Positions 43,342 to 57,693 of a stretch of DNA of 64,000 nt are shown piece after piece; position 1 is the stretch's first letter; every line of letters starts with the position of its first letter. The DNA comes from Lacibacter luteus (GTDB lineage Bacteria; Bacteroidota; Bacteroidia; Chitinophagales; Chitinophagaceae): the NCBI RefSeq assembly GCF_004118265.1, contig NZ_SDHW01000002.1:310001-374000 (forward strand), read 5' to 3'. A model generated the notes under the pieces. That model was given only the letters and a program-made list of their open reading frames with translations. It made no database searches and was not told the origin of the DNA. A program made the translations under genes and the position numbers.

Positions 43342-43831
43342 CTAAGAGTTTAAAGGAGGGAAAAGAGAAGAAAAAGAAAACACCAATTTACTTTTATGCA
43401 TATTGATGAGCTAACTAACCTTGTAATTAATTTCTGTATTAAAATTCATACAAGAATTGGATCTGGCTGTTTTGAAAAAGTATATGAAGAGGTTCTTTAT
43501 TACGAATTAATTAAAGCAGAAGTAAAAGTTGAACGGCAATTGCTGCTACCGATCAGCTACGAAGAGCTAACTATAAAAAGAGCTTATAAGCTTGATTTGT
43601 TAGTTGACGACAAACTGATTCTTGAGCTAAAATCTGTACATCCTCTTCCGTCTGTTTATTTCAATCAACTGCAAACACACCTTGTGCTTACAATCTTAAA
43701 ACACGGTTTATTGCTAAATTTTAAAGTGCCACTTATGAAAGATGGTATCCACAGAGTGTTCAACAACAAAGGGAGAGAATTAATCGTGTAGAATGCTCTT
43801 CTTTACTCTTTTCCCTCCTTCAAACTCCTAG
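43342..43831. mobile_element. Putative TIR-bounded cassette with GxxExxY gene (copy 1)
   Basis: The GxxExxY gene is flanked by 26-bp inverted repeats that match at 24 positions: left 43342-43367 (CTAAGAGTTTAAAGGAGG then GAAAAGAG) and right 43806-43831 (on the minus strand CTAGGAGTTTGAAGGAGG then GAAAAGAG). The left end is 4 bases after the AI-2E gene stop codon; the right end contains the stop codon of the cytochrome gene. Total about 490 bases. No transposase inside. Confidence 0.6.
43396..43791 (+). CDS. GxxExxY protein (PD-(D/E)XK-like), copy 1
   Basis: A 131-residue soluble protein of the GxxExxY family. The naming motif is GCFEKVY (Gly24, Glu27, Tyr30). Downstream, YKLDLLVDDKLILELKSV has the Asp...Glu-x-Lys spacing of PD-(D/E)XK nuclease-like folds. 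The paralogue at 54674 shares the plan but is diverged. The family often occurs in several scattered copies per genome and has no settled function. Here it is the only gene inside a terminal-inverted-repeat cassette. Confidence 0.88.
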   Translation: MHIDELTNLVINFCIKIHTRIGSGCFEKVYEEVLYYELIKAEVKVERQLLLPISYEELTIKRAYKLDLLVDDKLILELKSVHPLPSVYFNQLQTHLVLTILKHGLLLNFKVPLMKDGIHRVFNNKGRELIV

Positions 43832-53595: not shown

Positions 53596-53617
53596 CCTTC
53601 TTCAAAAATTGACTTGC

Positions 53618-54622
53618 ATGAAATTGATCTCCTACTTAAAAGACGAACACGAACAATTAGCTGTTTTGCACAATGGACTTGTGTACGATATGGATAGCCT
53701 GCATCCCGATCTTCCTACCAGTATGAATATGTTTTTGCAATACTGGGATGAATATATTGAAATGGCGAAAGCAAGTTTCAAAGCCATACAGGAAGGACGC
53801 TTAACAGCTGGCTACGTGCAAAAGATCGAAGAAGTACAATTGCTGGCACCTGTTACTATGCCACCGAGTTGCAGAGATGGTTATGCCTTTCGTCAGCATG
53901 TGGAAGCTGCAAGAAGAAACCGTAAGGTGGATATGATCGCCGAGTTTGATCAATACCCCATTTTTTATTTTACCAATCATCACAGCATACAAGGTCCGGG
54001 TGATGTGCGTTGTATGCCCGATCATTTTGAAAAGCTAGACTTTGAATTAGAGGTGGCCATTGTGATCTGCAAACATGGACGTAATATCCGTGCAGAAGAG
54101 GCTGATCAATACATTGCCGGCTTGATGATCATGAACGATTTGAGTGCACGACGTTTACAGATGGAAGAGATGTTGCTGAATCTTGGTCCGGCGAAAGGAA
54201 AAGATTTCTCCACAGCCATTGGTCCGTGGTTGGTAACATTGGATGAGTTGCAAGAGTTTGTTGTACCTGCAAAAGAAAACCATGTCGGTCTCAACTGGAA
54301 CTTAACTATGAAATGTTGGGTCAATGGTGTGCAGGTGAGTGCTGGTAATGTAGCACAAATGGATTGGACTTTTGCAGAGATCATTGAACGTGCAAGCTAT
54401 GGTGTTGATCTTTATCCCGGTGATGTGATCGGTAGTGGTACAGTTGGCACGGGCTGTTTCTTAGAACTCAACGGCACCGGCAAACTCAACGATCCAAATT
54501 ATACTGAACAATGGTTGCAGGAAGATGATGTAGTAGAAATGGAAATTGATGGCTTGGGACGATTGAGTAATACAATGGTGAGAGAGGAAGATGATTTTTC
54601 GATTTTAGCGAAGAAGAAGTAA
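53618..54622 (+). CDS. Fumarylacetoacetate-hydrolase family protein
   Basis: A 334-residue FAH-superfamily hydrolase, splitting C-C bonds of oxo-acids or acting as a decarboxylase/isomerase with a divalent metal. RDGYAFRQHVEAARR precedes the fold; LDFELEVAIVICKHGRNI carries the metal-binding Glu pair; GLMIMNDLSARRLQ carries Asp; KGKDFSTAIGPWLVT and GDVIGSGTVGTGC complete the site. No signal peptide. The flavin-reductase gene downstream may once have been its operon partner; a cassette now separates them. Confidence 0.88.
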   Translation: MKLISYLKDEHEQLAVLHNGLVYDMDSLHPDLPTSMNMFLQYWDEYIEMAKASFKAIQEGRLTAGYVQKIEEVQLLAPVTMPPSCRDGYAFRQHVEAARRNRKVDMIAEFDQYPIFYFTNHHSIQGPGDVRCMPDHFEKLDFELEVAIVICKHGRNIRAEEADQYIAGLMIMNDLSARRLQMEEMLLNLGPAKGKDFSTAIGPWLVTLDELQEFVVPAKENHVGLNWNLTMKCWVNGVQVSAGNVAQMDWTFAEIIERASYGVDLYPGDVIGSGTVGTGCFLELNGTGKLNDPNYTEQWLQEDDVVEMEIDGLGRLSNTMVREEDDFSILAKKK

Positions 54623-54623
54623 G

Positions 54624-55101
54624 CCAACCGCAGAGAAGAGAGAAAAGAAGCTAACGCAGAGAAAATTTAAACTATGCATACCAAAGAACACCTTAACAAT
54701 CTGGGAGCTGTTATACTCGATGCTGCTATTACAGTTCATAGGGAACTTGGTCCGGGATTGTTGGAAAGCGCCTATGAACTTGCACTTGCGAGAGAGTTAA
54801 TTTTAAGAGGAGTAAATGTGAAAGCACAAATTCCCGTTGAATTAATGTATAAGGATATTTCTTTGGGAAAAGCATATGTAATGGATATGTTAGTTGAAGA
54901 TGAAATAGTGGTTGAGATCAAGTCGGTTGAAGTAATGAACCCTGTTTATACAGCTCAATTGATCACCTATTTGAAACTCGCCAATAAAAAACTTGGTTAC
55001 CTTATTAACTTTAATGTACCGCTGTTGAAGGATGGATTTAAGAGAATTGTGCATGGATTTTAACTCTGCGCATTCTTTGCTTCTCATTTCTCTGCGGTTG
55101 G
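54624..55101. mobile_element. Putative TIR-bounded cassette with GxxExxY gene (copy 2)
   Basis: 38-bp terminal inverted repeats, 29 of 38 identical: left 54624-54661 starts CCAACCGCAGAGAA and ends CGCAGAG; right 55064-55101 is its inverse, beginning with the last base of the gene. The element is 478 bases long. The left end starts 1 base after the FAH gene stop codon. The repeat type (CGCAGAG) differs from the purine-rich type around 43342, so two TIR families carry the same cargo class. Confidence 0.65.
54674..55063 (+). CDS. GxxExxY protein (PD-(D/E)XK-like), copy 2
   Basis: A 129-residue protein. Motif GLLESAY (Gly28, Glu31, Tyr34) and VMDMLVEDEIVVEIKSV, with Asp and Glu-x-Lys spacing of nuclease-like folds, then GYLINFNVPLLKDG, a motif shared with copy 1 (LLNFKVPLMKDG). 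Sole gene of a 478-base inverted-repeat cassette. The two copies are clearly diverged, so they are unlikely to be a recent duplication. Confidence 0.9.
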   Translation: MHTKEHLNNLGAVILDAAITVHRELGPGLLESAYELALARELILRGVNVKAQIPVELMYKDISLGKAYVMDMLVEDEIVVEIKSVEVMNPVYTAQLITYLKLANKKLGYLINFNVPLLKDGFKRIVHGF

Positions 55102-55112
55102 AAAATACGAAT

Positions 55113-55997
55113 ATGATTATTGATCTCTCACAACTAACTCCCATGCAAAAACAACAATGGCTGCAACATGCTATTGCGCCTCGTCCTGTTTGTTTTGCAT
55201 CAACTATTGATAAAGAAGGAAATGTAAACCTGAGTCCTTTCAGTTTTTTTAATTTGTTTTCATCTAATCCGCCGGTAGTTGTTTTTTCGCCTGCACGCAG
55301 GGTAAGAGATAATACTACCAAACATACTTTGCAGAATGTATTGGAAGTGCCGGAAGTGGTCATCAACATCGTGGATTATGATATGGTGCAGCAGGTGAGC
55401 CTTGCAAGCTGTGAATTTCCAAAAGAGGTGAATGAATTTATAAAAGCTGGATTTACAGAGGAAGCTGCAACGCTGGTGAAACCACCAATGGTAAAAGAAA
55501 GCAAGGTGAAGATGGAGTGCAAAGTGCTTGAAGTAAAACCATTGGGCAGCGAAGGTGGCGCAGGCAATCTTGTTATTTGTGAAGTGCTGCGTATGCATGT
55601 TGACGAAAATATTCTCAACGCAGAGTCAACCATGATCGACCAACGCAAGCTGCATCATATTGCACGCCTCGGCGGCGATTGGTATTGCAAGGTTGATGAA
55701 CATAGTCTGTTTCATGTTGCCAAACCCAATACCCAGCTTGGTATTGGTATTGATGCATTGCCCGAAACCATCCGCAACAGCAATATCTTAACAGGCAACA
55801 ATCTTGGTCAATTAGCCAATGTGCATGAATACCCGGCTGTTGATGCAACATTCGAAGACGAGCAACTCAAAAATATCATCCAGTATTTTTCCATCAACCC
55901 CGATGAAATGGATAAGGAGCTGCACAAATATGCAAAAGAGTTGCTCGACGCAGGAAAAGTAAATGAAGCATGGCAGGTGCTACTTGCCGACAGCTAA
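55113..55997 (+). CDS. Flavin reductase-like (FMN-binding split barrel) protein
   Basis: A 294-residue flavoprotein of the flavin_reductase family. APRPVCFASTIDKEGNVNLSPFSFFNLFSSNPP, in parts, is the FMN-binding motif; RDTTKHTLQN-like (RDNTTKHTLQNVL) and LVICEVLRMHVDENIL follow. A C-terminal extension of about 90 residues (YWCKVDEHSLFHVAKPNT onward) is not part of the core. Start at 55113 (MIIDLSQLTP) is clean; the frame from 55032 overlaps the cassette. It likely supplies reduced flavin or acts on an aromatic compound. Confidence 0.88.
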   Translation: MIIDLSQLTPMQKQQWLQHAIAPRPVCFASTIDKEGNVNLSPFSFFNLFSSNPPVVVFSPARRVRDNTTKHTLQNVLEVPEVVINIVDYDMVQQVSLASCEFPKEVNEFIKAGFTEEAATLVKPPMVKESKVKMECKVLEVKPLGSEGGAGNLVICEVLRMHVDENILNAESTMIDQRKLHHIARLGGDWYCKVDEHSLFHVAKPNTQLGIGIDALPETIRNSNILTGNNLGQLANVHEYPAVDATFEDEQLKNIIQYFSINPDEMDKELHKYAKELLDAGKVNEAWQVLLADS

Positions 55998-57491: not shown

Positions 57492-57693
57492 AAGAGGATT
57501 GTTCGCTTCGCTCACACTAATTTTTCACACAGAGTTCACGGAGAACACAGAGAAAAAAACAAATCACATGCATTATCTGTGTTAATCCGTGCAATCCCCG
57601 CCTGAATGACGACAGTCGGGCAGGTGTGAGCAACAGCAATAAAAAAAGGCTGCACCAAGTACAGCCCTCTTTTTATCTTTTTCAAACTCTTAG
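57464..57693. mobile_element. Gene-less remnant flanked by the cassette repeat
   Basis: The left side AAGAGTTTAAAGGAGG (57465-57480) is identical over 16 bases to the left repeat at 43342; the right side on the minus strand begins CTAAGAGTTTGAAAAAG (ends at 57693). Between them are CACAGAG and ACACAGAG strings and AATCCGTGCAATCC, typical intergenic repeats, and no gene. It may be a decayed or solo element. The left end lies in the last codons of the hydroxylase gene; the right end is 1 base from the stop codon of the DUF4197 gene. Confidence 0.45.
57638..57666 (-). terminator. Terminator of the DUF4197 gene
   Basis: On the minus strand GGCTG, loop, CAGCC then a T-run, 29 bases after the stop. 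Confidence 0.7.

Follow-up and report, generated by a model that had tools for sequence, protein, structure and literature searches.

A GxxExxY gene inside a split palindrome in Lacibacter luteus, and related gene-bearing and gene-less palindromes in bacteria

The window cassette, its predicted nuclease and the distribution of armed genes

The window analyzed here, a stretch of 64,000 nucleotides of the Lacibacter luteus genome, contains a small GxxExxY gene between two facing repeat arms, and the resulting cassette occupies the gap (slot) between two operon genes. All three genes are codirectional. A sister cassette, the first in the window, lies upstream of this locus.

53609-54622, plus strand: upstream host gene, fumarylacetoacetate hydrolase family (FAA; PF01557)
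54624-54661, plus strand: left arm, CCAACCGCAGAG AAGAGAGA AAAGAAGC TAACGCAGAG, with CGCAGAG heptamers at 54629-54635 and 54655-54661
54674-55063, plus strand: GxxExxY gene, 129 aa, PD-(D/E)XK nuclease superfamily, with G28xxE31xxY34, D71, E81xK83 and Q95xxxY99
55064-55101, minus strand: right arm, inverted, with minus-strand CGCAGAG heptamers at 55064-55070 and 55090-55096
55113-55997, plus strand: downstream host gene, flavin reductase-like (PF01613), its start picked by conservation among relatives
43342-43831, plus strand: sister cassette, with arms of the CTAAGAGTTTAAAGGAGGGAAAAGAG type at 43342-43377 and 43797-43831 and a GxxExxY gene at 43396-43791

The arms are 38 nt each, are separated by 402 nt in the repeat search and are complementary at 29 of 38 positions (76%), with an outer CCAACCGCAGAGAA block and an inner CGCAGAG block that are both perfect. 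The stop codon of the upstream FAA-family gene lies 1 base from the left arm, the right arm starts at the base directly after the GxxExxY stop codon, and the start codon of the flavin reductase-like gene is found 11 bases beyond the right arm. An inverted-repeat score of 20, as obtained here, was reached by 0 of 2000 dinucleotide-preserving shuffles, and a chance origin of the arms was rejected on these shuffles and on the control genes described below. The first-pass annotation had described true inverted ends around the GxxExxY gene, with this match, these perfect blocks and a right arm directly after the stop codon, and our analysis agrees on each point. It had also proposed that end types differ between cassettes; this is borne out within the window, where the end sequences of the sister cassette are unlike those of the cassette at 54624-55101. 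The neighbors of the window cassette are ordinary metabolic genes, and neighbors vary from slot to slot.

The window protein matched the GxxExxY family TIGR04256 over its full length (E=4e-40; 136.9 bits compared with a curated cut-off of 35) and PF13366, PDDEXK_3 (E=3e-39; 134.6 bits compared with a cut-off of 22). Alignment of 37 diverse GxxExxY proteins identified G26, G28, E31, Y34, D71, E81, K83 and Q95 as invariant and H22 and Y99 as nearly so. We take the pattern D71, E81xK83 and Q95xxxY99 to be that of a Cas4/RecB-type PD-(D/E)XK nuclease, in line with a weak Cas4 profile match (E=0.004), and these conserved residues lead us to predict that the family consists of nucleases with a PD-(D/E)XK, Cas4/RecB-like core. 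No relatives were found in the PDB by sequence. GxxExxY proteins are widespread and without known function; in the literature searched they are named only in passing, and searches with the end sequences, or with TIGR04256 or PF13366 together with repeats, led to no description.

The L. luteus genome contains 10 GxxExxY genes, most of which have arm sequences of their own, and the family was found in 43 of 59 relatives. A gene was counted as armed at an inverted-repeat score of at least 14. Among the 113 GxxExxY genes with flanks from the relatives, 76 were armed, compared with 6 of 174 other ORFs of the same loci, and 37 had no recognizable arms. A multi-phylum sample, biased to the window's subfamily because its query was built of window-like proteins, gave arms at 44 of 73 GxxExxY loci and at 8 of 94 control genes. 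This sample covers more than 10 phyla, among them Bacteroidota, Ignavibacteria, Verrucomicrobia, Planctomycetota, Chloroflexi, Cyanobacteria, Acidobacteria, Proteobacteria, Desulfobacteraceae, Cloacimonadota and KSB1. Relative to codirectional neighbors, GxxExxY cassettes had the same orientation in 81 cases and the opposite one in 6. A plasmid or phage was rejected as the vehicle, with GxxExxY present in 8 of 72,556 plasmid records and in 0 of 50,697 phages.

Several individual loci depart from this layout. At L188, L206 and L210 the arms around the GxxExxY gene face outward (CTTTGCG on the left, CGCAAAG on the right). At L128 and L331 the GxxExxY gene has internal stop codons while the arms are intact, so that gene decay precedes arm decay.

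Shared slots and gene-less palindromes

The FAA slot that holds the window cassette was surveyed in 12 congeneric genomes, with the following contents.

L131: empty
L124: solo (gene-less) palindrome
L125, L127 and L134: GxxExxY gene with CGCTAAG/CACAAAG ends
Window, L128 (broken gene) and L129: GxxExxY gene with CGCAGAG ends
L130 and L132: 23S-IVP four-helix gene with GAGTTATG ends
L126 (G002): CGCTAAG-type left arm, then a membrane-protein-like ORF (155 aa) that matches nothing in Pfam; a right arm is not visible
L133: rearranged end

Similarly, the nuoF/nuoG slot contained cassettes, a solo palindrome (L172), single arms (L166 and L187), the reversed-facing arms of L188 and empty gaps. At one slot in Flavobacterium, some gaps were empty and others held GxxExxY cassettes (eight in all), a GIY-YIG cassette (L336, L346) or one of many solo palindromes, which had several end types. 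The slot is the interchangeable part, since from one related species to another a given gap can be empty or contain one of several cassettes or a palindrome without a gene. When G011, G012 and the solo sites were compared for an exact insertion boundary and a target duplication, the gaps proved too diverged for this or held other palindromes.

We further compared arms between homologous slots, including only elements that still have arms. As protein identity drops from above 0.85 to 0.3-0.5, the similarity of left arms to left arms and of right arms to right arms in different species declines from 39 to 9, whereas left-right similarity within an element stays steady at 19-23. In successive identity bins, the within-element similarity exceeded the between-species similarity in 0/14, 1/14, 14/15, 34/37 and 13/13 pairs. 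The nuoF/nuoG and FAA slots each carry a single protein clade over genera, indicating that both arms changed together in place there; simple replacement was rejected as the cause of arm drift at these two slots on the same ground, and drift in place is the better reading for them. The metH slot carries two unrelated protein clades, and thus replacement also happens.

Solo palindromes also occur outside these slots. A partial census over 464 kb of the L. luteus genome included one in the window.

57528-57591, no strand assigned: gene-less palindrome, CACAGAGTTCACGGAGAACACAGAG (57528-57552) facing ATCTGTGTTAATCCGTG (57575-57591)

Here CACAGAG/CACGGAG units face CACAGAT units, and the palindrome separates a sterol-desaturase-like gene from the gene that follows it. 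For one protein clade, that of L008, the gene-less palindromes are cognate with the cassette. The L008-clade outer end, ATAGANNCRCNGAT, gave 27 hits in the L. luteus genome compared with 0 for the reversed control pattern; its copies form facing pairs approximately 75-165 bp apart, and one further pair, approximately 500 bp apart and with both ends matching, surrounds the gene. Expressed per Mb, this end reached 3.3-8.0 in seven congeneric genomes with the gene of this clade and 0-3.1 in seven without it (one-sided p=0.001, a value that ignores phylogeny). Genomes without the nuclease had 0-16 hits; three of these still have 10-16, perhaps due to gene loss. The window's own end type turned up at just one other locus, L011, whose right arm has decayed. 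Separately, at L407, L416, L395 and L408, ATAGA-type arms enclose terminator-like hairpins, as if placed around a terminator or capturing one.

These observations bear on a homing-type explanation, in which a solo palindrome represents the unoccupied allele. The nuclease would cleave this allele, the gene would be copied into the loop during repair, and the palindrome, once split, would be immune, with no dispersal to new sites needed. Such a cycle would place the gene between inward-facing arms, as is seen, and would fit the solo, occupied and empty alleles at the same slots, the single protein clade per slot over genera at nuoF/nuoG and FAA, and the rarity on plasmids and absence from phages. 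However, genomes with the L008-clade nuclease have 15-36 hits of its one end type, scattered and mostly gene-less, and the palindrome itself therefore seems to disperse. In addition, within one slot the end type of a solo allele is often not that of an occupied allele. We consider homing alone an unlikely account, although one to be taken seriously.

Heptamer arrays and their coupling to protein clade and cargo

Most arms are built of three to four directional units of one degenerate heptamer, C-R-C-N-R-A-G/T, spaced 1-4 bases apart. Among the 32 elements that have three or more units per arm, spacer lengths agreed at 0.91 for facing positions compared with 0.54 for non-facing ones, whereas the free fourth base agreed at 0.57 between facing units and 0.53 between non-facing units. 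Motif and spacing are shared and the free base is not, which argues that neither base pairing nor copied sequence is what the arms conserve. Gene conversion between the arms was rejected on the same free-base comparison. Stem pairing and gene conversion do not explain the likeness of the left and right arms well.

An RNA element was considered in this context, with the arms forming a stem in the operon mRNA and the gene in its loop, for processing like that of RNase III-cut intervening sequences or for expression control. The 81:6 co-orientation with host operons, the arms that adjoin stop and start codons, and the terminator-like hairpins inside some solo palindromes are all in keeping with such an element, and 23S rRNA intervening sequences do combine a stem with an S23 gene (PMC4990558). 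Yet G.U mismatches between the arms are no more frequent than A.C mismatches (92:98), a balance that speaks against selection for pairing in RNA. Co-variation of facing units at the free base is likewise not seen, and the element had no match in Rfam. These tests gave an RNA stem no support, and we regard a role of this kind as very unlikely.

From their fixed layout, the arms look like arrays of candidate protein-binding sites. The fixed-spacing heptamers and their co-evolution with the protein would also suit regulatory sites, and the arms might accordingly be operators of a defense or toxin-like nuclease gene carried in operons. Against this, a symmetric array 3' of the stop codon and gene-less palindromes elsewhere would be unexpected. 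Furthermore, PADLOC returned only weak Cas4 profile matches (E=0.004), with no other known defense profile and no conserved partner gene that would indicate a defense or toxin-antitoxin system. We give the operator explanation hardly any weight.

Arms and protein have co-evolved. Three end classes mapped on a tree of 120 proteins required 14 changes, compared with 39.7 for shuffled labels (0/200 as low), and among 2755 non-orthologous pairs protein identity correlated with end similarity (Spearman 0.36). CTCACGC-type ends occur in one protein clade across Nostoc, Desulfobacteraceae, Verrucomicrobia, Roseiflexus, Planctomycetota and KSB1. Two unrelated gene families are also found in palindromes: 24 of 28 four-helix (PF05635, 23S-IVP) genes and 15 of 25 small GIY-YIG genes have arms. 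Those of the four-helix genes are tandem arrays that repeat strictly every 7 bp (autocorrelation of 0.64 at that lag). The four-helix cassettes had the same orientation as codirectional neighbors in 26 cases and the opposite in 1. CRCNR[AC][GT] heptamers were present in 84/120 GxxExxY, 2/24 four-helix and 0/15 GIY-YIG elements. Ends are coupled to protein clade and cargo family, and are not freely exchanged.

The first-pass annotation had asked whether end type co-varies with protein subfamily, and the tree gives a positive answer. Its suggestion of modular end/cargo pairing survives in part: one slot can host different cassettes, but the ends are specific to the cargo and bound to the protein clade, with L150 as an apparent exception. 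It had further held that a widespread intergenic repeat unrelated to the gene would speak against its reading. The ends do belong to a widespread repeat; that repeat is nonetheless tied to the gene.

The other cargo families offer further observations. The 23S-IVP four-helix genes (L130, L132 and L135-L164) sit inside palindromes in protein-gene operons and not in rRNA genes. The small GIY-YIG genes (L336, L346 and L357-L386) have flanking palindromes with hairpins such as TTTCAGCATCT, GAGCGGAGTCGAAGGGT and GTCATCCCGA..GGGATCTG. L150 is a four-helix gene with GxxExxY-type CACAAAG ends, possibly an end/cargo swap.

The gene could also be a passenger, if the palindromes were non-autonomous repeats moved by another enzyme (e.g. 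a RAYT or an IS transposase) and the cargo had been captured in their loops. That three unrelated gene families lie in comparable palindromes, even in the same slot, would be readily explained in this way. A passenger would leave unexplained, however, why each cargo family has an end type of its own, why end types follow the GxxExxY clades from phylum to phylum, and why the density of solo palindromes follows the cognate nuclease. We judge this explanation quite improbable.

A proposed gene-plus-palindrome system and its relation to known systems

On balance, we lean towards the view that the window cassette is the 'autonomous' form, with its own gene, of a selfish system of gene and palindrome, similar to a REPtron and with a predicted Cas4/RecB-like nuclease. 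In such a system the nuclease, or a complex containing it, would recognize the arrays of heptamers in DNA, probably while the palindromes are folded or single-stranded in the course of replication. It would cut the arrays, and palindromes and cassettes would then be copied or re-installed into intergenic gaps; we infer these steps of binding, cutting and copying from the arrangement of the elements. Insertions that leave the surrounding operon expressed would survive, and cassettes would thereafter be mostly vertically inherited, losing the gene to become a solo palindrome or a single arm before disappearing.

Extending this to all of the elements studied is a more tentative step, and one that we think has a somewhat less than even chance of being right. 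GxxExxY nucleases may form a mobile-element class not described before, which disperses and maintains palindromes of its own heptamer recognition arrays in more than 10 phyla, and 23S-IVP four-helix and GIY-YIG genes may each belong to a parallel system, with an end code of its own, in competition for the same gaps in operons. The data give GxxExxY proteins a likely substrate, their own arms, with a recognition motif that is predicted from sequence clade by clade, and they connect an enzyme with a class of intergenic palindromes found in Bacteroidota and other phyla. Should the proposal be true, systems that spread palindromes evolved around at least two nuclease folds that are unrelated, and the co-evolution of arms and protein would be a ready data set on the change of DNA specificity in a small nuclease.

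Known systems share some of these properties. Homing endonuclease genes (e.g. of the GIY-YIG family) are likewise nuclease genes lodged in a site that their own product may recognize, and they go through cycles of gain, decay and loss; the elements described here differ in having no intron or intein and in their repeat arms and dispersed solo palindromes. MITEs and insertion sequences with terminal inverted repeats are also short elements with inverted ends that come in autonomous and gene-less forms. Here, by contrast, each cassette carries one gene, of PF13366, with no known transposase or recombinase, and the ends are arrays of several motif units that vary per lineage. Near-identical copies at several sites were not found among the 76 armed elements, whose closest non-orthologous pair has 73% protein identity and which include no recent duplicate.

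The 23S rRNA intervening sequence with its S23/IVP gene (PF05635; Coxiella, PMC4990558) resembles the cassettes in its small ORF within the loop of a stem-forming repeat, its size of approximately 430-480 bp and its patchy presence. It differs in its protein and in its location, as the GxxExxY cassettes lie between protein genes, and not in rRNA with an RNase III-cut stem, and show no pairing signature. Degenerate heptamer arrays of suspected mobile origin are also known from the stems of the Nostoc trnL intron (PMC4476775) and from TAACTGA intergenic repeats (PMC4679880), with two exchangeable motif classes in the stem. In the P6b stem of the trnL intron these classes are TDNGATT and NNTGAGT, and they are similar to the heptamer classes found here, ..NGAT and ..NGAG. 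No nuclease gene is linked to those arrays, and we treat the relation only as a lead.

The REPtron consists of TnpA-REP (RAYT) and flanking REP/REPIN palindromes (PMC8266576, PMC8049555, PMC3116915) and uses an HUH enzyme for palindrome spread and maintenance (PMC8266576). In both systems, palindromic repeats lie on either side of a single enzyme gene and recur many times without it in the same genome, enzyme and repeat co-evolve, and persistence is long. Among the elements studied here, the L008 clade has gene-less palindromes that share its end within the same genome, the window's end type has only a single additional copy, and enzyme and repeat type co-evolve on the protein tree. The differences are that the only cassette gene is the PD-(D/E)XK-type GxxExxY gene (PF13366), not an HUH Y1 transposase gene, that the arms are C-R-C-N-R-A-G/T heptamer arrays and not GTAG- or CGTC-tagged REPs (PMC3733652), and that the gene lies inside one split palindrome. 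Thus the element falls outside the REP/RAYT class because of its enzyme, outside the insertion sequences because it has no transposase, and outside the 23S intervening sequences because of its gene and its place. By analogy, it is the REP/RAYT systems that it appears to resemble most closely in function.
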